Both the position numbers and the translations under genes were made by a program. A DNA stretch of 58,812 bases from Omnitrophica WOR_2 bacterium GWF2_43_52 (GTDB lineage: Bacteria > Omnitrophota > Gorgyraeia > Gygaellales > UBA12090): NCBI GenBank assembly GCA_001805445.1, contig MHGF01000008.1:1-58812 (forward strand). The letters run 5' to 3'. The notes beneath the pieces were generated by a model. It made no database searches, was not told where the DNA came from, and was given only the letters and a program-made list of their open reading frames with translations. Of this stretch, positions 22,776 to 37,288 are shown piece after piece (within the stretch, counting starts at the first letter, position 1; each line of letters begins with the position of its first letter).

Positions 22776-23351
22776 ATGCGTAAGATTATTTTGGCATCGC
22801 AATCTAAGGCAAGGCGGGAACTGCTTAAGCAAATAGGGCTTACGTTTCAAGTAGCAGGCGCCCATGTTAAAGAAGAACACCGTCAGAGGGGTGGTTGCGC
22901 TCGTTTGGTAACGCGCAACGCGCTTCTTAAGGCTCAGGATGTAGCGAAAGGATGTCAATCTGGTGTGGTTATTGGCGCGGACACGGTAATTTTCGCGGGA
23001 GGGAAAATAATCGGTAAGCCGAAAAATGTATCAGACGCTTTTCGAACCTTAAAACTGCTTTCTCAAAAACCCCAGTGGGTCTATACAGGGCTCGCAGTCA
23101 TTGATATAGAAAATAGCAGAGTCTATACTGATTATGAAAAAACAAAGATTTATATGTATCGTTTGACGGATAGCCAGATAAGGAACTATTTTAAAAAGGT
23201 TTCTCCCCTTGATAAGGCGGGCAGTTTTGATATCCAGGGCTTAGGAAGCGTGTTTATTGACCGTATTGAGGGTTGTTTTTATAATGTCGTAGGCCTCCCC
23301 TTGGCAAAATTGGCAAAGTTATTAAGGAAAGCAGGTATTGATGTTTTTTAA
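22776..23351 (+). CDS. maf: Maf-family nucleotide pyrophosphatase
   Basis: 191 residues. MRKIILASQSKARRELLKQIGL is the canonical Maf start; GADTVIFAGGKIIGKPKNVSDAFRTLKLLS carries the catalytic Asp and the KP motif; DKAGSFDIQGLGSVFIDRIEGCFYNVVGLPL closes the family pattern. It hydrolyses non-canonical or certain normal NTPs (dTTP, UTP, CTP or modified bases) and affects septum formation in some bacteria. It begins just after the inverted end of the 8-bp array, so the array may bear on its expression. Its end overlaps the next gene by 11 bp. Confidence 0.95.
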   Translation: MRKIILASQSKARRELLKQIGLTFQVAGAHVKEEHRQRGGCARLVTRNALLKAQDVAKGCQSGVVIGADTVIFAGGKIIGKPKNVSDAFRTLKLLSQKPQWVYTGLAVIDIENSRVYTDYEKTKIYMYRLTDSQIRNYFKKVSPLDKAGSFDIQGLGSVFIDRIEGCFYNVVGLPLAKLAKLLRKAGIDVF

Positions 23352-24171
23352 GAAATCGTTTACTTTCTACTTTCTACTCTCTACTCTCTACTTTATGGCC
23401 GGTTGCGCTACCGAATATAATACCGCGACGCAATCCGAGGAGTGGATATTTCATTCCGTTAATAAAGAAATAAAGATAGGAAAATCCGTGGCTATGCAGA
23501 TTGAGCGCACGTATAAAGTAAGCGAAAATTCTTACCTGCAGGCAAGGGTTAAGGCTATAGGGGAAAAGATTGTCGGCGTTTGTGACCGGAAAGAGCTTGT
23601 CTATTATTTTAATGTCCTTGAGGCTCGGGATGAAAAAGACAGAAAGGATATTGACGAGGAAGTGAATGCCATGGCGCTTCCCGGAGGCTATATCTATTGT
23701 TTTAAAGGCTTGTTTAACGTCGCGAATCCGACAGATGATGAGTTAGCTTGTGTTTTGGCGCACGAAGTCGGGCATATCGTGGCAAAGCATTCGCTTAAGA
23801 AGTTGCAGGGTTCAATGGCGTATATGGTAATGAGAATCCTTTCTATGCAAGTACCGAACGCTCCCGAAGTTGGCTATGGGCTGGATGCGGCATTCTATGA
23901 ATTGATGATGGGTTATTCCCGGGAGGATGAATTGCTGGCAGATAGGCTGGGAGTGCGCTATGCGAAGGCGGCAGGCTATGACCCTCAAGGAATGATTACC
24001 TTTCTAGAGAAATTGCAGGCAATAAACCGTAAAAAACCGCTGCGCCCGTTTTCGTATGGGAAGACCCATCCCTATGCCCCGGATAGAATTCGGGTGGTGA
24101 AAGAAGAATTAGGAGAGGGAATAAGCTTTAAGGATTACATTAATATAGAAAGCAGAGAACACGGAAGGTAG
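23341..24171 (+). CDS. M48-family metalloprotease lipoprotein (BepA/YfgC-like)
   Basis: 276 residues from ATG 23341, inside the end of maf. A lipoprotein signal ends at the lipobox MAGC (Cys near 21). The zinc site is LAHEVGHIVAKHS (HExxH), with a third ligand Glu in YSREDELLADRLGVRYAKAAGYDP. Such proteins clear misassembled outer-membrane proteins. Two oddities: the signal-peptide codons are a TACTTTCTACTCTCTAC word array, and the TAG stop belongs to a REP element (GTAGGGGCGGCCC). The natural C-terminus may have been longer. Confidence 0.92.
   Translation: MFFKKSFTFYFLLSTLYFMAGCATEYNTATQSEEWIFHSVNKEIKIGKSVAMQIERTYKVSENSYLQARVKAIGEKIVGVCDRKELVYYFNVLEARDEKDRKDIDEEVNAMALPGGYIYCFKGLFNVANPTDDELACVLAHEVGHIVAKHSLKKLQGSMAYMVMRILSMQVPNAPEVGYGLDAAFYELMMGYSREDELLADRLGVRYAKAAGYDPQGMITFLEKLQAINRKKPLRPFSYGKTHPYAPDRIRVVKEELGEGISFKDYINIESREHGR
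23354..23396. repeat. CTTTCTACTCTCTAC word array inside a signal peptide
   Basis: Inverted version of the AGTAGAAAGTAG words seen at 5294, 37298, 39533 and 47060. It encodes FTFYFLLSTLYFM, which still works as a hydrophobic signal core. Confidence 0.8.
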
Positions 24172-28830: not shown

Positions 28831-29246
28831 GGGGGTGAAAGGTCTCGACTTAGGTGGGCGAGTAATGGTGGCATGCCGCGGAAGCAATGACGGCCGCGAT
28901 AACAATCATTGCACAATACAAATGCTGATAAACCATCAGTATTAACCTTCAACGGGTTAATGAGAACTATGCAAGTAGTTCCTAGCCCGATGATGGCTCC
29001 AGTCTTCGTTCGCTAATCCGAACGAAGCCTCAAACCGATCTGCCTAAGGGTTGGATTTGAGCACTTAGTTTAGGCTAGTCCTTTATCTTGCCTTGAGTTA
29101 AAGGATGAGATTTATGAAAAGGGTAGTCCCTTTAAAATCCCGTTTACCGGAGAGTTTAGGGATGAAGTTTAAAAGGTATCCTACGCATGTAGAGGCTTTT
29201 ATTCAAGCGCTTAAGGACGCGGGTTCAATTCCCGCCACCTCCACCA
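28831..29246 (+). ncRNA. ssrA: Transfer-messenger RNA (tmRNA)
   Basis: 416 nt. Acceptor GGGGGTG (28831-28837) pairs with CACCTCC (29236-29242), followed by encoded ACCA. The T arm is GCGGG-TTCAATT-CCCGC. The first pseudoknot is visible: CGCGG/CCGCG with loop GCAATGA pairing to TCATTGC. Eleven nt after it lies GCT (28924), the expected resume codon. The frame stays open to TAA at 29014-29016, which sits in the loop of a CTTCGTTCG/CGAACGAAG hairpin as in other tmRNAs. A weak TAAAAT (28812-28817) may be the -10. Confidence 0.96.
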
Positions 29247-29275
29247 ACCATTTCATTAATGAAATGGTTGGTGGA
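29240..29275. repeat. 36-bp perfect palindrome at the tmRNA 3' end
   Basis: TCCACCAACCATTTCATT and its exact complement with no loop, centred at 29257/29258. Its left arm includes the encoded CCA of tmRNA. A second stem, GCCGAAATA/TATTTCGGC (29278-29298), follows. No gene in 29247-29453. Confidence 0.9.
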
Positions 29276-29453
29276 TGCCGAAATAATGTATTTCGGCGCC
29301 ACCATTCTGCTACGCTCTTTAGAAGCTAAATAGTTACCACTGCAGAATTAGCATAAAGAATATTTGTAAAAAGAGAACGATGGTTCGAATAGGATGATAG
29401 AGAAGAGCAAGAACAACCCGTAGTGCTTATGGGTTTATATTTTTGGAGAGGCA

Positions 29454-29788
29454 ATGGTTAAGGTAAAAAGCAAAAAAAATATCCCATAATTCAAAGGATA
29501 TTAAAAAAGATACAAAAAGAATATCAACCAGAGAAAGTAATCCTTTTTGGTTCATATGCATGGGGCAAACCAAGCAAACACAGCGATATTGATTTGTTTA
29601 TTGTTAAAAAGACAAATGCGCGGCATATTGACCGTTCAGTAGAGATAAGAAAGATAGTTGATAAGGAAAACGGAATGGTTGCGTTAGACCCAATAGTTTA
29701 TACTCCTGATGAAACCGAATATAGGCTTAAGCTGGGGGATGACTTTATTAAGAAGATTCTGACAAAAGGAGTTGTGTTGTATGGATAA
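29454..29788 (+). pseudogene. MntA-like nucleotidyltransferase, frameshifted
   Basis: The frame from ATG 29454 (MVKVKSKKNIP) hits TAA at 29487. Adding one A to the A8 run at 29472-29479 joins it to an open frame with IQRILKKIQKEYQPEKVILFGSYAWGKPSKHSDIDLFIVKK. That contains the minimal nucleotidyltransferase GSYxxG...SDIDLF motif. MntA antitoxins AMPylate and silence HepT (HEPN) toxins. The partner start overlaps its end by 8 bp, the normal order. The break could be real, phase-variable or a sequencing error. Confidence 0.8.
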
Positions 29789-29858
29789 ACCAGAAATAGT
29801 CAAGGAATGGTTTAGTAAAGGCAATAAGGATATAAACGACGCGGAATTCCTTTTTTAA
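29781..29858 (+). pseudogene. HepT (HEPN) toxin fragment
   Basis: 25 codons, MDKPEIVKEWFSKGNKDINDAEFLF and stop. This is the first helix of a HEPN domain (typically 110-140 residues); the RxxxxH catalytic part is absent. The rest is lost and the sequence soon reaches CCCCGCTCCACCA, which resembles the tmRNA 3' end. Confidence 0.7.
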
Positions 29859-29911
29859 AGAAAAAACAAAATAATATCGGGTGCCTTCTATCCCCGCTCC
29901 ACCAAATTTTT

Positions 29912-31636
29912 ATGCAAAAAACTGATAACCAGAAAAAGATGGATAGCCCGCCGTTGAACAGGCTTTATATCGGGTTGGTTTTAGCTATACTTGTGACAGA
30001 GACAGCGGTTATGCTGGTTTTTCATGTATTTCTGGAGACTTGGCATCTTTCGCCATTAGCTGAAGGGTTGACCAACAGCCTGGTTTTAGTTATTTTTTTA
30101 CTTCCTGTACTGCATTTCTCATTCTATCGTCCTGTATCTTCGCAAATCGCCAGGTATAAACAGGCTTTAGAATCAATACAGGAATTACAGACCATCTATG
30201 GCGTCATCATTCGTACGGCAATGGATGGTTTCTGGCTTATCGATATCATGGGGCGCATTTTGGAGGTTAACGATTCTTACTGCCGTTTAACCGGTTACAG
30301 CCGTCAGGAGCTGTTAGCTATGTCTGTATTTGATTTAAGAGCGCAGGAAAAACCCGAAGATACCAAAAGGCATATCCAGCGGATAATAGAATCCGGCGGT
30401 GACCGCTTTGAAAGCCATCATCGCTGTAAAGACGGCAGAATTGTGGATTTGGAGGTCAGCGTTAATTATTTAGATGTTGATGGCGGCCGGCTCTTCGCCT
30501 TTCTACGCGATATTACTGAGCGCAAGCTTGTTGAGAGGGAAATGACAGAGTTGAACATATTAAATCAAGTGCTTGTCAAAACCATTCCTTTTGGAATGGA
30601 TGTTGTGGATGCTGAGGGGAACGTTTTGTATCTTAGCCCGAGGTTAGAGGCTCTTTTTGGCAAGGAGGCAATAGGCAAAAAGTGCTGGGAGCTGTACAAG
30701 GATGATAAAATTCAATGCAAAGATTGCCCTTTAAAATCAACAACTGCAGCGGGGCTAACAGATACTATAGAAACCTTTGGCGTATTTGGGGGAAGGAGTG
30801 TGCAAATCAGCCATACCAGTATGGAATATCAGGGGAAAAAAGTCCTCCTGGAAATTTTTCAGGACATCACCGAGCGCAAGCGTTACGAAGAGGAGCTGAT
30901 AGCGGCAAACCATGAGCTGGTGAAGCTGGAGAGGATGAAGACTGAATTTATCACCACAGTGTCTCATGAGCTAAGGACGCCCTTAGGGATAATGCGCGAA
31001 GGGGTGAGCCAGGTGGTTGAAGGCCTCCACGGCGAGATAACCGAGGGGCAGAGGCAGTATTTGGGGAAATCATTGGGCCATATGGAGCGCCTGACCAGGA
31101 TAGTCAATAGTATTTTAGAGATAGCCAACCTTGAGGCGGGAAAGATTGGCCTGCGGATGGAATCGGTGGATATTGCGGCATTAGCGCGGGAGATGATACG
31201 CATGTTTGAACCCGCGGCCCAGAACAAAAATGTAGAGATACGGGCACATTTTTCGAGTAGGGGCGAACCCCTGTGTTCGCCCGAAAAGATAGTGTTGCGG
31301 GGGGACAGGAATAAGCTTGGGCAGGTGTTTATCCATTTGATAGATAACGCGGTAAAATTTAGTGAAAAAGGGCATATAGAGATTCAGATTCAGGAAACAG
31401 CGGATACCGTGGAATGTGTGGTGAGTGATACAGGCAGAGGGATGACGAAAGAGGCTTCGGCGAATGTGTTTGATAAATTCCAGCAGTTTGGCAGGGAATA
31501 CGGGCCCGGGCAAAAAGGGGTAGGCTTAGGCTTAGCGATAACCAAGGGTATTATAGAGTTGCATAAAGGCAGGATTTGGATTGAGAGCGAGTTTGGCAAA
31601 GGCACGAAGGTGAGTTTTAGCCTGCCGAAGGGATAG
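29912..31636 (+). CDS. PAS-domain sensor histidine kinase (copy 1)
   Basis: 574 residues. Two membrane segments (about 18-40 and 50-70), a coiled linker, one PAS domain (TAMDGFWLIDIMGRILEVNDSYCRLTGYS), a second PAS-like domain with CWELYKDDKIQCKDCPL, then HisKA with the phospho-His in VSHELRTPLGIMREG and a HATPase with DNAVKFSEKG, DTGRGM and GVGLGLAI. In-frame REP sequence encodes residues about 449-457 (SSRGEPLCSPE) between HATPase strands. From DITERKRYEEELIAAN onward it is almost identical to the kinase at 32851. The signal is unknown. Confidence 0.93.
   Translation: MQKTDNQKKMDSPPLNRLYIGLVLAILVTETAVMLVFHVFLETWHLSPLAEGLTNSLVLVIFLLPVLHFSFYRPVSSQIARYKQALESIQELQTIYGVIIRTAMDGFWLIDIMGRILEVNDSYCRLTGYSRQELLAMSVFDLRAQEKPEDTKRHIQRIIESGGDRFESHHRCKDGRIVDLEVSVNYLDVDGGRLFAFLRDITERKLVEREMTELNILNQVLVKTIPFGMDVVDAEGNVLYLSPRLEALFGKEAIGKKCWELYKDDKIQCKDCPLKSTTAAGLTDTIETFGVFGGRSVQISHTSMEYQGKKVLLEIFQDITERKRYEEELIAANHELVKLERMKTEFITTVSHELRTPLGIMREGVSQVVEGLHGEITEGQRQYLGKSLGHMERLTRIVNSILEIANLEAGKIGLRMESVDIAALAREMIRMFEPAAQNKNVEIRAHFSSRGEPLCSPEKIVLRGDRNKLGQVFIHLIDNAVKFSEKGHIEIQIQETADTVECVVSDTGRGMTKEASANVFDKFQQFGREYGPGQKGVGLGLAITKGIIELHKGRIWIESEFGKGTKVSFSLPKG
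31257..31283. repeat. REP element inside histidine kinase 1
   Basis: 27 bp, GTAGGGGCGAACCCC-TGT-GTTCGCCCG, in frame within the ATPase domain. Same position and sequence as 34310-34336. Confidence 0.9.
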
Positions 31637-31640
31637 CCGA

Positions 31641-31784
31641 ATGGCCAAAAATAAAAACCGTATACATGGAATCATATCAATTGTAGGGGCGAACCCAGGT
31701 GTTCGCCCGAATAACGATAACGGGCAAAACGATAACGGGCAGACACATGGGTCTGCCCCTACATTCCCGACATTCGTATTTTAA
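31641..31784 (+). pseudogene. Internally deleted mini-copy of the RAYT gene
   Basis: 47 codons: MAKNKNRIHGIISIVG, then REPIN-coded residues, then FPTFVF and TAA. The start matches the RAYT start at 31799 (ATGGCCAAA) and then jumps to TATACATGGAATCATATCAATTG, the RAYT sequence at 32028-32050, before a REPIN. It looks like a deletion derivative of the transposase lying just upstream of the intact one. Confidence 0.75.
31683..31762. repeat. REPIN copy A (80 bp)
   Basis: Two REPs in inverted order: GTAGGGGCGAACCC...TTCGCCCG and CGGGCAGACACATGGG...GCCCCTAC, joined by AATAACGATAACGGG with one extra CAAAACGATAACGGG unit. The linker stutter makes it longer than the 65-bp copies. Confidence 0.92.
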
Positions 31785-31798
31785 TAGGTGTTTAATTA

Positions 31799-32359
31799 AT
31801 GGCCAAAGACCAAAATAAACCATGCGATTTACCAAAACGCAGACAATTAAGGTTGAAAGGGTATGATTATTCACAGAGCAATGCGTATTATATAACCGTA
31901 TGCACAAGGGACAGGGAAATGTATTTCAAAAATGAAGAGGCAAGGAAATTAATAAAAGATATATGGAATAAATTGCCGGATAAATATAATGGTATCTATA
32001 CGGATGAATGCATAATTATGCCAAATCATATACATGGAATCATATCAATTGTAGGGGCGAACCCAGGTGTTCGCCCGAATAACGATAACGGGCAGACACA
32101 TGGGTCTGCCCCTACGTTAGGGAGAATTGTTCAATGGTTCAAAACATTGACGACGAATTATTACATAAAAGGTGTTAGGAATAATAATTGGAAACCGTTT
32201 TCGGGCAAATTATGGCAACGCAATTATTATGAGCATATTATCAGAAATGATGGGGACTTGAATAAAATCCGTGAATACATCAGAAATAATCCGGTAAATT
32301 GGGAAAATGATTCTGAAAATATTACACGTAGACGTGAATCCATGTGTTTGCCTGAATAG
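31799..32359 (+). CDS. REP-associated tyrosine transposase (RAYT, IS200-like Y1)
   Basis: 186 residues. RLKGYDYSQSNAYYITVCTRDREMYF is the usual N-terminus; the HUH motif is in IIMPNHIHGII (His77, His79); the nucleophile Tyr is in WQRNYYEHIIRN (143/144), followed by IREYIRNNPVNWE. These single-copy enzymes cut REP hairpins and are thought to spread REPINs. Here a REPIN lies inside the gene, coding residues about 85-106 between the HUH strand and the next helix. Another REPIN supplies the last residues (RRESMCLPE). It is flanked by REPINs on both sides. Confidence 0.92.
   Translation: MAKDQNKPCDLPKRRQLRLKGYDYSQSNAYYITVCTRDREMYFKNEEARKLIKDIWNKLPDKYNGIYTDECIIMPNHIHGIISIVGANPGVRPNNDNGQTHGSAPTLGRIVQWFKTLTTNYYIKGVRNNNWKPFSGKLWQRNYYEHIIRNDGDLNKIREYIRNNPVNWENDSENITRRRESMCLPE
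32051..32115. repeat. REPIN copy B inside the RAYT gene
   Basis: 65 bp, GTAGGGGCGAACCC...GGGTCTGCCCCTAC with linker AATAACGATAAC. It is in frame and adds about 22 residues. Confidence 0.92.
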
Positions 32360-32392
32360 CGATAGCGGGCAGACACATGGGTCTGCCCCTAC
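32328..32392. repeat. REPIN copy C at the RAYT 3' end
   Basis: 65 bp. The left REP has decayed (GTAGACGTGAATCCATGTG); the right REP is intact. The RAYT stop TAG falls in the linker. Confidence 0.88.
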
Positions 32393-32426
32393 ATGCGTAT
32401 ATTTGTGTATACGAGGAGACCTAACA

Positions 32427-32846
32427 ATGGACAAGAAAAAAATTTTATTAGTTGACGATGAGCCGGATTTTGTGGAGTTGATAAAAAAAAGGCTGGAATT
32501 AAATGGGTATGAGGTTGCTTCAGCCGTAAACGGCAAAGAGGCATTGGAAATGATAACGGGCAGACACGTGGGCCTGCCCCTACTTAAGAATGAGCGCTTT
32601 GATGCGGTTTTGCTTGATATCCTGATGCCTGAGATGGACGGGCTTAATGCGCTTAAGGCAATACGCAGGCACAATAAAAATTTGCCTGTGTTTATGCTCA
32701 CTGCCCATTCCGACGAGGAGCAGTTCCAGGAGGCAAACCGCCTGGGCGCGTCAGGATTCATTGTCAAGACCGCCGACTTGCAAAAGGAAATAGAGAATAT
32801 TACCAGTATCCTGCGTCTTTCAAGCAAATTTCATCCAGAGAAATAG
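32427..32846 (+). CDS. Single-domain response regulator with a REP-encoded loop
   Basis: 139 residues; ATG 32427 has AGGAG 9 nt upstream. Receiver features: KILLVDDEPDF (acidic pair), phospho-Asp64 in VLLDILMPEMDG, Thr in MLTAHS and Lys in FIVKTA. Between EALEMI and NERFDAV the REP 32557-32583 codes TGRHVGLPLL (residues 44-53), lengthening the alpha2-beta3 loop by about ten residues. There is no output domain. It lies between the two kinases and probably takes phosphate from one of them. Confidence 0.92.
   Translation: MDKKKILLVDDEPDFVELIKKRLELNGYEVASAVNGKEALEMITGRHVGLPLLKNERFDAVLLDILMPEMDGLNALKAIRRHNKNLPVFMLTAHSDEEQFQEANRLGASGFIVKTADLQKEIENITSILRLSSKFHPEK
32557..32583. repeat. REP element inside a response regulator
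   Basis: 27 bp, CGGGCAGACACGTGGGCCTGCCCCTAC half-REPIN with GATAA linker remnant before it. In frame. Confidence 0.88.
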
Positions 32847-32850
32847 GGCT

Positions 32851-34689
32851 ATGGCAGAAAATACCTCAGGACAAAAAACAGCTTCTCAAATGCTTTGCAC
32901 CGGAGAAGAACATCCCGTCTGGAAGACAGTCTACCATTCTCCTGTAAAACTTATTTTGATTGTAGGTATTTCACTATTCGTCTATGAGGCTCTGATAATG
33001 GCGGTTATCCGCTATCTTCCGCCGCTTCCTGAATGGGTTTTGATAGTTCTTGATCCGGCGCTTTTGCTTATTTTATTGTCTCCTACCTTGTTTTTCTTCT
33101 TTCTTAAACCCCTGCTTATGAATCTCTCAGTGTTAAGAAAAGAAGAAGAGGAAATCCATACGCTTAATGAAGCATGCGAACGCAAGGTTATTGAAAGGAC
33201 TGCGCAATTTGAGTTAGCGAATAAAAAATTGGAGGAAATAAATGCGCTGAATCAGGCAATTTTTCAAGCTATACCTTTTGGTATGGATATTGTGGATACG
33301 GATTACAATATCCTTTTCTTAAGCCCTAAGCTTGAAGCTGTTTTTGGCGAGGAGGCAATCGGGAAAAAATGCTGGGAGGTATACCGGGATAGTAAAGCCC
33401 CCTGCACCGAGTGCCCTTTAAACAAGGGCATTGAGCCCTGTGAATCCGTGACTATAGAGACTGAAGGATTTTTTGGAGGGAAGGTATTTCAGATTAGCCA
33501 CACGGCGATGATGTATCAGGGCAAGAAAGCGGTTTTAGAGATTTTTGAGGATATTACCGCGCGCAAACTGCTAGAGGTGGAGCAGATTAAATTGTCCGCG
33601 GTAATACGGCAGGCCGCGGATTTGGTAATGATTACTGATACCAACGGCATTATCGAGTATGTAAATAACGCCTTTGAGGAATTGACAGGATATAAAAGAG
33701 ATGAGATAATCGGAAAAACTCCGGATGTCCTCTCTTCCGGCGTTCAGAGGAAAGAATTTTATAATAATTTATGGATAACAATTAAAAGGGGCGAAGTTTT
33801 CCGGGGGATTCTTGTAAACAGGAAGAAGAACGGAGAGTTTTACTATTCTGAAAAGACCATAACTCCGATCAAAGGCCCTCAAGGAAATATTATTAGTTTT
33901 GTTTCCACAGATAAAGACATCACCGAGCGCAAGCGTTACGAAGAAGAGCTGATAGCGGCAAACCGGGAGCTGGTGAAGCTTGAGAGGCTGAAGAGTGAAT
34001 TTATCACCACAGTGTCTCATGAGCTGAGGACGCCCATAGGGATAATGCGCGAAGGGGTAAGCCAGGTGTTGGAGGGGCTGCATGGGGAGATAAGCGAGGG
34101 GCAGAGGCAGTATTTGGGGAAGTCTTTGAGCCATATGGAGCGCTTGACTAAGATAGTCAACAGTATCTTAGAGATAGCTAACCTTGAGGCGGGAAAGATT
34201 GGCCCGCGGATGGAAGAGGTTGATATCGCGGTAATAGCGCGGGAAATGATACGCATGTTTGAACCTTCAGCCCAGAATAAAAACGTAGAGATACGGGCAC
34301 ATTTTTCGAGTAGGGGCGAACCCCTGTGTTCGCCCGAAAAGATAGTACTGCGGGGAGACAGGAATAAGCTTGGGCAGGTGTTTACCAGTGTGATAGATAA
34401 CGCGGTAAAATTCACCGAAAAAGGGCATATTGAGGTGCAGATTCAGGAAACAGCGGATACCGTGGAATGTGTGGTGAGCGATACCGGCCGAGGGATGACG
34501 AAAGAGGCTTCGGCGAATGTGTTTGATAAATTCCAGCAGTTTGGCAGGGAATACGGGCCAGGGCAAAAAGGGGTAGGCTTAGGCTTAGCGATAACCAAGG
34601 GTATTATAGAGTTGCACAAAGGCAAGATTTGGATTGAGAGCGAGCTGGGAAAAGGGACACGGGTGAGTTTTAGCCTGCCGAAGGGATAA
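32851..34689 (+). CDS. PAS-domain sensor histidine kinase (copy 2)
   Basis: 612 residues. Two membrane segments (about 33-52 and 62-88), coiled linker, PAS with CWEVYRDSKAPCTECPL (about residues 165-200), a second PAS (ADLVMITDTNGIIEYVNNAFEELTGY), HisKA with VSHELRTPIGIMREG, and a HATPase with DNAVKFTEKG, DTGRGM, GVGLGLAI. The REP at 34310-34336 codes SSRGEPLCSPE as in copy 1. The kinase half is nearly identical to copy 1 while the sensor half differs, so the two arose by duplication with a swapped sensor or by gene conversion. Confidence 0.93.
   Translation: MAENTSGQKTASQMLCTGEEHPVWKTVYHSPVKLILIVGISLFVYEALIMAVIRYLPPLPEWVLIVLDPALLLILLSPTLFFFFLKPLLMNLSVLRKEEEEIHTLNEACERKVIERTAQFELANKKLEEINALNQAIFQAIPFGMDIVDTDYNILFLSPKLEAVFGEEAIGKKCWEVYRDSKAPCTECPLNKGIEPCESVTIETEGFFGGKVFQISHTAMMYQGKKAVLEIFEDITARKLLEVEQIKLSAVIRQAADLVMITDTNGIIEYVNNAFEELTGYKRDEIIGKTPDVLSSGVQRKEFYNNLWITIKRGEVFRGILVNRKKNGEFYYSEKTITPIKGPQGNIISFVSTDKDITERKRYEEELIAANRELVKLERLKSEFITTVSHELRTPIGIMREGVSQVLEGLHGEISEGQRQYLGKSLSHMERLTKIVNSILEIANLEAGKIGPRMEEVDIAVIAREMIRMFEPSAQNKNVEIRAHFSSRGEPLCSPEKIVLRGDRNKLGQVFTSVIDNAVKFTEKGHIEVQIQETADTVECVVSDTGRGMTKEASANVFDKFQQFGREYGPGQKGVGLGLAITKGIIELHKGKIWIESELGKGTRVSFSLPKG
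34310..34336. repeat. REP element inside histidine kinase 2
   Basis: Same 27-bp REP and same site as 31257-31283, so the insertion is older than the kinase duplication or was copied by conversion. Confidence 0.9.
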
Positions 34690-34691
34690 AA

Positions 34692-34735
34692 AAACGGATG
34701 CAGACGGATGATGGCGGATGTCGCGGATAAATAAC
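34692..34735. repeat. ACGGATG word stretch
   Basis: AACGGATG-CAGACGGATG-ATGGCGGATG-TCGCGGAT: four related words right after the kinase stop, before the leader of the next regulator. Confidence 0.6.
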
Positions 34736-34809
34736 AGGTGAAATAATCGAAAATGAGTGATAAAATAAATAACAGCAATGAAGTAATAGAAATAAGGAGG
34801 ATTTTTAGG

Positions 34810-35187
34810 ATGAGCAGGAAAAGGATTTTGTGTGTTGAAGATGAGGCGGATATGCTGGAGATGGTGCGCTTCCGCCTTGAGCAGGAGGGATATGAAGTTA
34901 TCTCCGCGGCAAATGGTAAAGAAGGCTTGGATAAAGCGTATAAGGACAAGCCTGATTTGATATTGCTTGATCTGATGCTTCCGGAGAAAAGCGGCTATGA
35001 GGTGTGCCGTATCCTGAAATCTGATACGCAATTTAAAGTAATTCCTATTGTTATCTTTACTGCCAGGGCTTCCGTAAGCGAGGAACAGCTTGGATATGAG
35101 TGCGGCGCTGATGACTATATTACCAAGCCGTTTATGCCGGATGATTTCATCAATAGAATCAAAAAGCTGCTGAAAGAAGAATTGTAG
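34810..35187 (+). CDS. Single-domain response regulator
   Basis: 125 residues from ATG 34810, chosen over 34753 because AAGGAGG stands 7 nt upstream. RILCVEDEADM, phospho-Asp in LILLDLMLPEKSGYEV, Thr in IFTARAS and Lys in YITKPFMPDD give a full receiver. No output domain. Its TAG stop is part of a truncated REP (GTAGGGG), so the original C-terminus may have differed by a few residues. It lies upstream of another receiver and the secretion ATPase gene, suggesting control of that machine. Confidence 0.92.
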   Translation: MSRKRILCVEDEADMLEMVRFRLEQEGYEVISAANGKEGLDKAYKDKPDLILLDLMLPEKSGYEVCRILKSDTQFKVIPIVIFTARASVSEEQLGYECGADDYITKPFMPDDFINRIKKLLKEEL

Positions 35188-35197
35188 GGGCGAACCC
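35183..35197. repeat. Truncated REP giving a stop codon
   Basis: 15 bp GTAGGGGCGAACCCA, the left part of the REP. TAG at 35184-35187 region ends the upstream gene. Confidence 0.75.
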
Positions 35198-35213
35198 ATT
35201 GGAGAGCCAGGTA

Positions 35214-35585
35214 ATGGCAAAGAAACGCATATTGGTGGTAGATGATGAGGTGGATTTAGCCGAGATGATACGCTTTCGCCTGCAGGCAAACGGATATGAA
35301 ATCCTGCTTGCCCATGACGGACAGCAGGCATTGGAGGTGGCGCGAAAAGAAAGGCCGGATTTGATTATCCTTGATTTAATGCTTCCCAAGATGGACGGAT
35401 ACAAAGTCTGCGGCCTGTTGAAAATTGATTCGCGCTACGCGGATATTCCCATTATTATTTTTACTGCCAAGGCTCAAGGAGAAGATATAAAGCTTGGCGA
35501 AGAAGTCGGGGCGAATGCCTATCTGTTAAAGCCGTTTGAGCCAAAAGTGTTATTGGATAAAATAAAAGAGCTTATTAAAGAATGA
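35214..35585 (+). CDS. Single-domain response regulator
   Basis: 123 residues from ATG 35214 (MAKKRILVVDDEVDL); a start at 35199 would add five residues. Acidic pair DDE, phospho-Asp in LIILDLMLPKMDGYKV, Thr in IFTAKAQ and Lys in YLLKPFEP are present. It ends in a 4-bp ATGA overlap with the secretion ATPase gene, so the two are translationally coupled. This argues that the receiver regulates or docks on the pilus/secretion motor, as small receivers do in other pilus systems. That link is inferred. Confidence 0.92.
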   Translation: MAKKRILVVDDEVDLAEMIRFRLQANGYEILLAHDGQQALEVARKERPDLIILDLMLPKMDGYKVCGLLKIDSRYADIPIIIFTAKAQGEDIKLGEEVGANAYLLKPFEPKVLLDKIKELIKE

Positions 35586-37288
35586 AAGCGCAAAAGCAAA
35601 AAAAATCCTTAGCCGAAACACTGGTTGAAATCGGCCTTTTAAGCAATGAGCAGGTAAAGGAGGCTCAAAACCAGGAGCGTGAAAGCGGCCAGCCGTTTCG
35701 CAGAATCATTGTTCAAAAGGGCTATGTCAGCGAAGAAGATTTAATCTCTTTTATGGCCGCCCATATGGGCCTGCCGCGGATTGAGCTCAGGAATTATATT
35801 ATTGACGCCAAGGTTATTGGCCTTATCACTGAGGAACTGGCGCGTAAACATCACATCATCCCGATTTTAAAAATCGGTAATAGCCTTACCTGCGCGATGT
35901 TTGACCCTCTCAACATCTTTGCCATAGATGAATTACGCAACAGGACAGGCTTTGATATTGAGCCCGCGGTAGCCACAGAGCAGGAAATCAAGGAAGCGCT
36001 CAATCAATATTACAGCGTTAAAGGAAGCATTGATGAAATAGTCAAAACTATTGATAAGGAGCGTGTTGGGCTTAAGAAGGGTGAGGAATTTGACCTTAAG
36101 AAACTGCAGGAGGTCTCGGGAGAACCCCCTGTAGTAAGGCTGGTGAATTTGACGATTATGCAGGCAGTTAAAGAAGGCGCAAGCGATATCCATATTGAAC
36201 CTGAAGAGGATACTGTAAGGATTAGATACCGTATTGACGGTATTTTGTATGACCGTTCGCCGATTCCCAAGTACCTTCAGTCAGCGATTATCTCTCGTAT
36301 TAAAATACTTTCCGAGCTTAACATTGCCGAGCATAGGGCATCTCAAGATGGCCGTTTTCAGATTAAAATAGAGAGCCGCCAGATAGATATACGCGTCTCG
36401 GTGGTAGCGACTATTTTTGGGGAGAATGTGGTGTTACGGCTTTTGGATAGAAGCAGTTCAATCTTAAGTTTAAGCCAGTTGGGTTTTTCTAAAGAGATTT
36501 TAGGCAAATATGAGAAGCTCATCCTGCGGCCCTTTGGCATAATCTTGGTAACCGGCCCTACGGGCTCAGGAAAGACCACGACGTTGTACGCGTCCCTCAA
36601 CCTTATCAACTCAAGCCAGAAGAATATTATTACTATTGAGGACCCTGTTGAATATCATCTTGACGGGATACGCCAAATACAGGTAGAGCCTAAGGCAGGC
36701 ACCACCTTTGCCACAGGCCTGCGTTCTATCCTTCGGCAGGACCCTGATGTGATTATGGTAGGAGAGATACGCGATAGGGAAACCGCGGAGATTGCCATTC
36801 AGGCTTCTTTAACCGGCCATCTGGTATTTTCAACCCTGCATACCAACGATGCCTCAAGCGCCGTAAGCAGGCTGATTGATATGGGGGTTGAGCCTTTTTT
36901 GGTATCCTCGGCGCTTATCGGAGTATTAGCCCAAAGATTGGTGAGGGCGATTTGCAAAGAGTGCAAAGAAGAATATATCCCTTCCGAAGAATTGATGAAT
37001 GATATAGGATACAAAGATAATGGCCAAGGCGCGGGAATTAAATTTTTTAAGGGAAAAGGCTGCCCTAAGTGCTCGCAGTCAGGCTACCGGGGGAGAATCG
37101 GCATTTTTGAATTGATGCCGGTGGATGACGCTCTCAGGAGCCATATTACGGCTAAGGCTCCACGAGAAGAAATAAAAAAGCAGGCAGAGGCCATGGGTAT
37201 CGTCAGTTTAAAGGCCGACGGCCTGCGCAAGGCCAAAGATGGAATTACAACGGTAGAAGAGGTGCTACGGCTAACGCAGGAGGAGTAA
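35582..37288 (+). CDS. gspE: Type II secretion / type IV pilus assembly ATPase GspE/PilB
   Basis: 568 residues. An N-terminal MshEN-like domain (LAETLVEIGLLSNEQVKEA, about 1-150) can bind c-di-GMP in some relatives. The motor has VTGPTGSGKTTTLYASL (Walker A), IITIEDPVEYHLDGIRQIQV (Asp box), ILRQDPDVIMVGEIRDRETAEIAIQASLTGHLVFSTLHTNDA (Walker B and His box), and a tetracysteine zinc knuckle (CKECKEE...CPKCSQSGYRGR). It powers pilin polymerisation at the inner membrane. Start overlaps the preceding receiver. The downstream gspF is separated by a foreign four-helix-bundle gene. Confidence 0.96.
   Translation: MKAQKQKKSLAETLVEIGLLSNEQVKEAQNQERESGQPFRRIIVQKGYVSEEDLISFMAAHMGLPRIELRNYIIDAKVIGLITEELARKHHIIPILKIGNSLTCAMFDPLNIFAIDELRNRTGFDIEPAVATEQEIKEALNQYYSVKGSIDEIVKTIDKERVGLKKGEEFDLKKLQEVSGEPPVVRLVNLTIMQAVKEGASDIHIEPEEDTVRIRYRIDGILYDRSPIPKYLQSAIISRIKILSELNIAEHRASQDGRFQIKIESRQIDIRVSVVATIFGENVVLRLLDRSSSILSLSQLGFSKEILGKYEKLILRPFGIILVTGPTGSGKTTTLYASLNLINSSQKNIITIEDPVEYHLDGIRQIQVEPKAGTTFATGLRSILRQDPDVIMVGEIRDRETAEIAIQASLTGHLVFSTLHTNDASSAVSRLIDMGVEPFLVSSALIGVLAQRLVRAICKECKEEYIPSEELMNDIGYKDNGQGAGIKFFKGKGCPKCSQSGYRGRIGIFELMPVDDALRSHITAKAPREEIKKQAEAMGIVSLKADGLRKAKDGITTVEEVLRLTQEE

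Follow-up and report, generated by a model that had tools for sequence, protein, structure and literature searches.

According to Quentin et al. 2018 (PMC6006769), TnpAREP subclass 2.4, to which every member of Bertels' RAYT group 4 belongs, is unique in having REPs in frame inside the transposase gene, generally between HuH and Y, and this feature predominates in the subclass. REPs within genes have also been described more widely (Di Nocera et al. 2013, PMC3733652). These intragenic REPs and the Rickettsia palindromic elements are, like the element analyzed here, palindromic repeats lying in frame in protein genes; however, their host genes are unrelated, whereas the present host gene encodes the cognate enzyme. 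The REPINs of Pseudomonas fluorescens (Bertels and Rainey 2011) are similar in that two inverted palindromes tagged with GTAG or GTGG make up a single mobile unit associated with a RAYT. Unlike the approximately 20 REPs found in this genome, several of which are intragenic, they are extragenic and number in the hundreds. In the case of E. coli and the group 3 enzymes, the GTAG foot and hairpin are bound in single-stranded DNA, which is cut nearby (PMC8266576), and W94, Q95, E100, H101, and R104 of E. coli TnpAREP contact GTAG (PMC6006769). The E. coli enzyme (rayT/yafM, PDB 4er8; group 2) has the HUH-Y1 fold and the W-Q-E-H-R set of GTAG contacts in common with the protein studied here, but it differs in its gene without an in-gene REP, its bulged REP stems, and its C-terminal extension.

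The window, i.e., the whole stretch of 58,812 nucleotides that was analyzed, carries a gene that is very probably a TnpAREP/RAYT of subclass 2.4 (RAYT group 4) accompanied by its REPs, an arrangement termed a "REPtron", with a cognate REPIN in a permissive loop. The features of the locus are as follows.

31799–32359, plus strand: RAYT (TnpAREP) gene, 186 amino acids, with HUH residues H77/H79, tyrosine Y160, and the GTAG-contact set W139, Q140, E145, H146, and R149 (profiles, alignment, and model)
32051–32116, plus strand: in-frame REPIN insert of 66 nt, 22 codons, residues 85–106 (VGANPGVRPNNDNGQTHGSAPT), in the loop that joins the HUH strand to helix C, which follows it
32051–32076, plus strand: left REP of the in-gene REPIN, GTAGGGGCGAACCCAGGTGTTCGCCC (pattern search and self-comparison)
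32090–32115, minus strand: right REP of the in-gene REPIN, GTAGGGGCAGACCCATGTGTCTGCCC (pattern search and self-comparison)
31655–31766, plus strand: duplicate of the RAYT interior (32023–32119) that contains the "upstream REPIN" together with 28 nt of RAYT coding sequence (sequence comparison)
31683–31708 and 31737–31762: the two halves of the upstream REPIN (pattern search)
32328–32392, plus strand: downstream REPIN, with a decayed left half (32328–32352) and a right half at 32367–32392

Membership in subclass 2.4 fits the features read from the sequence. As in that subclass, an in-frame REP lies between HuH and Y, the gene is bordered on both sides by inverted GTAG-tagged REPs (31683–31762 and 32328–32392), and the W/Q/R motif is conserved. 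Moreover, the HuH–Y spacing is enlarged and variable (86 residues here, with a median of 88 in the subclass and 64–146 in the relatives examined), and the alignment with relatives stops shortly past the Y motif, leaving no conserved C-terminal extension. Nothing categorical sets the locus apart from the subclass; what the window adds is an upstream copy of the gene interior and a protein end that is read from a decayed REPIN.

The RAYT protein matched PF01797 over the curated cut-off, and it matched NCBIfam REP_Tyr_transpos with an E-value of 1e-18, under the curated cut-off of that family, probably because of the insert and the divergence of the protein. The HUH motif, a single downstream tyrosine, and the metal-binding position approximately four residues past it (N164) are all present. 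In an alignment of 52 relatives, H77, H79, Y160, and N164 were invariant, which agrees with the preliminary description of a RAYT that had kept its HUH and Tyr residues. On alignment to 4er8, the GTAG-contact set proved to be the counterpart of the five E. coli residues given above. The AlphaFold2 model had a mean pLDDT of 86.8, with a confident core and low confidence in the insert stretch, and fold comparison of this model returned IS200-type transposases and E. coli TnpAREP 4er8. An IS200/IS605 insertion sequence, which would be marked by mobility of the whole element and several transposase copies, was considered and rejected, as the genome contains one full copy and one fragment. The genome encodes 11 further Y1_Tnp genes, none closely related to this RAYT.

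The preliminary description placed three REPINs at the locus: one upstream, one in frame inside the RAYT, and one forming its C-terminus. All three were recovered. The REP pattern GTAGGGGCGAAY-N4-GTGTTCGCCC had 4 matches in the window, as did the partner pattern for the right half, compared with 0 in 100 shuffles (0.00 expected). The in-gene REPIN forms one long hairpin that folds far better than shuffled sequences (z-scores of -6.0 as RNA and -5.3 as DNA). It had been located about 22 residues after the HUH strand; however, 22 residues is the length of the insert, which starts 5 residues past HIHG. The upstream REPIN is present but is better seen as belonging to an incomplete second copy of the RAYT interior. 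This duplicate is 112 nt long and contains RAYT coding sequence (28 nt encoding the HIHGII region), and thus it was derived from the RAYT gene or a sister copy. A RAYT copy with an internal deletion is hinted at by the resemblance of 31640–31657 to the start-codon region at the 5' end of the RAYT (31798–31815; 83% over 18 nt), a match too short to rely on. As for the C-terminus, the part formed by a REPIN amounts to the last ten residues (177–186), which are read from the left REP, now decayed, of the downstream element, and the stop codon sits in the spacer of this element. No Rfam match was found at the in-gene element; the sole Rfam match in 29000–36500 was tmRNA. The tmRNA gene lies at 28831–29246 (Rfam RF00023, ARAGORN), approximately 0.7 kb upstream of the first histidine kinase gene.

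REPs also occur in the neighboring genes, as single elements lying in frame.

31257–31282, plus strand: left-type REP in a histidine kinase gene (29912–31636)
32558–32583, minus strand: right-type REP in a response regulator gene (32427–32846)
34310–34335, plus strand: left-type REP in a histidine kinase paralogue (32851–34689)

The two kinase paralogues carry only the left type, at the same position, and the response regulator only the right type. Since the site is identical in both paralogues, the REP is probably older than the kinase duplication. Genome-wide (2.47 Mb), the pattern GTAGGGGC-N(8–22)-GCCCG had 20 matches, compared with 1 for the reversed control, so that the expectation of REPINs elsewhere in the genome held. 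Eight of these 20 matches fall within 31257–34336 of the window, at most 3 kb from the RAYT. Pairs of inverted REPs forming REPINs were found elsewhere at C10:27364–27425 and C38:25087–25150, and the copies inspected outside the locus were intergenic or close to gene ends. In two places, the TAG of a GTAG foot serves as the stop codon of a gene: at 24168–24171 for the upstream gene (ORF 23338–24171) and at 35184–35187 for the response regulator gene 34753–35187. REPs with stems of other RAYT clades were also observed in this genome (C34:139697, C2:66138, C14:4361, and C35:70632); these are possibly remnants of lost RAYTs.

The preliminary description regarded a RAYT carrying REPINs inside its own gene as an odd layout. 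This view had to be given up, since in-gene REPs are the published hallmark of the subclass and occur in about 90% of the relatives. Judged by the refuting condition given in that description, an insert shared by distant RAYTs, the claim of oddness fails within the subclass. This gene is ordinary for its subclass, and the statistics on in-gene REPs extend the published description. For these statistics, 80 relatives of this RAYT protein from many phyla were fetched in addition to those of the phylum itself, giving 105 distinct RAYTs. In 95 of these 105, the region between HuH and W held one or more REP hairpins (stem of 7 bp or longer with at most 1 mismatch), a count of tips that share ancestry and not of independent events. 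The 10 without a hairpin represent an upper bound, as bulged E. coli REPs and some of the decayed copies escape the finder. To avoid loop bias, sampling was repeated with a 65-residue C-terminal fragment as the query; a REP was found in the HuH–W region of 19 of 21 parsable loci and then of 30 of 33 further loci, both samples partly overlapping the first set. Of the GTAGGG feet in HuH–W loops, 161/176 had a stem, compared with 1.3% of feet planted in shuffled loops. The plus-strand feet were in frame 0 in 68 cases, in frame 1 in 8, and in none in frame 2, where TAG would be read as a stop. REP density in the loop was 8.0 per kb, approximately 130 times that of other long nearby ORFs (0.06 per kb). 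Outside the subclass, the insert was absent: no REP lay in the ORF of the other Y1_Tnp genes of this genome (5 parsable of 6 fetched; HuH–Y spacing 60–62), and none was found in E. coli rayT by a finder that misses bulged E. coli REPs.

The match between each in-gene REP and the REPs near it was evaluated by searching for the in-gene REP (at most 4 mismatches) both in its own locus and in every other one, with the RAYT ORF left out. Own-locus matches numbered 181, compared with a permuted mean of 18.6 and maximum of 66 (2000 permutations), and 48 loci had an own match, compared with a permuted maximum of 15. In-gene REPs thus match the REPs beside their own gene approximately ten times more often than foreign REPs. 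When 15 in-gene REPs were offered to the whole genomes G202 and G024, every listed match was to the in-gene REP of that genome. Moreover, REP distance tracked core-protein distance (Mantel r of 0.32; permutation maximum of 0.13). One stem, GGGCGGTT, is common to five RAYTs (L095, L099, L123, L133, and L040) from Chloroflexota, Planctomycetota, Nitrospirota, and the phylum of the window, and a loop reading CRGGSRTAPT is common to 4 of these 5. The shared stem and loop across phyla suggest that gene and REP were transferred together.

Turnover was reconstructed on a tree of the RAYT core without the loop, on which many inner branches are weakly supported and change counts are approximate. REP presence changed 8–11 times, depending on whether bare feet were counted, compared with a minimum of 64 changes in the 8-nt stem (44 types). 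Thus, the element stays while its sequence gets replaced. The enzyme would be a single-strand HUH nuclease recognizing the GTAG foot and hairpin of its REP, by homology to the E. coli and group 3 enzymes. In this reading, a REPIN is lodged in the variable surface loop that separates the HUH strand from helix C, and the fold tolerates it there. The hairpin, which is of the enzyme's own REP type, persists, and its stem changes along with the RAYT lineage and with the genomic REPs nearby. These changes probably arise when cognate REPs are copied into the gene again and again or via conversion by genomic REPs.

Whether selection or mere tolerance keeps the insert bears on its persistence and leaves the identity of the gene unaffected. 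Under neutral insertion, REPINs would hop randomly and survive in a dispensable loop, and their frequency would reflect an old inherited insertion plus tolerance. The loop is indeed peripheral and of low confidence in the model, insert-free RAYTs exist and are scattered over the tree, and in-frame REPs also occur in unrelated genes, both here and in the literature (PMC3733652). However, REP density in the loop was approximately 7 times that of nearby non-ORF DNA (1.1 per kb). A neutral relic should also decay, yet hairpins of the local type were kept through all the stem changes. Neutral insertion is a serious explanation that we place somewhat short of even. Alternatively, the in-gene REP could be a working part of group 4 RAYTs that links enzyme and substrate through horizontal transfer and seeds the REPs of a new genome, with the pairing selected beyond its coding role; this proposal is possible but tentative. 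The wider pattern bears on how RAYTs and REPs stay matched. Approximately 90% of the sampled group 4 RAYTs, from many phyla, carry a REP of local type in one loop, with far more replacements of its stem than losses of the element, and through this single loop the idea of a self-carried substrate becomes testable. The interest accordingly lies in these wider statistics more than in this gene.

Another explanation is that the RAYT is decaying and inactive, overrun by its own REPINs and on its way to becoming a pseudogene. The genome holds only about 20 REPs, and therefore present-day activity is doubtful. The C-terminus replaced by a decayed REP and the partial duplicate upstream point in the same direction, as does a gap near residue 45, where roughly a dozen residues that follow the FG motif in relatives are absent. 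However, the frame is open, the HUH, Tyr, and DNA-contact residues are kept, the core fold is confident in the model, and relatives normally have the same layout, all of which makes decay unlikely. Autoregulation, as the preliminary description proposed, in which the hairpin in the RAYT mRNA or in single-stranded gene DNA would be bound by the RAYT or block expression and limit copy number, is also unlikely: the hairpin is strong in the sense RNA, a cognate REP is kept across phyla, and REP hairpins have been suggested to down-regulate RAYT expression (PMC3733652), but the known enzyme activity is on single-stranded DNA, and the insert is absent in about 10% of the relatives. Our literature search turned up no study of autoregulation through REPs within the gene.

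A second in-frame REP site, 37–65 codons before HuH, was observed in 8 relatives (L029, L037, L049, L104, L109, L116, L121, and L125), and in the inspected cases among the group 4 RAYTs, it lay between the FG and LN motifs. In two relatives, partial tandem RAYT copies adjoin the full gene (L028 873–1193 and L049 972–1412, in reverse-strand locus coordinates), and these copies resemble the upstream duplicate of the window.
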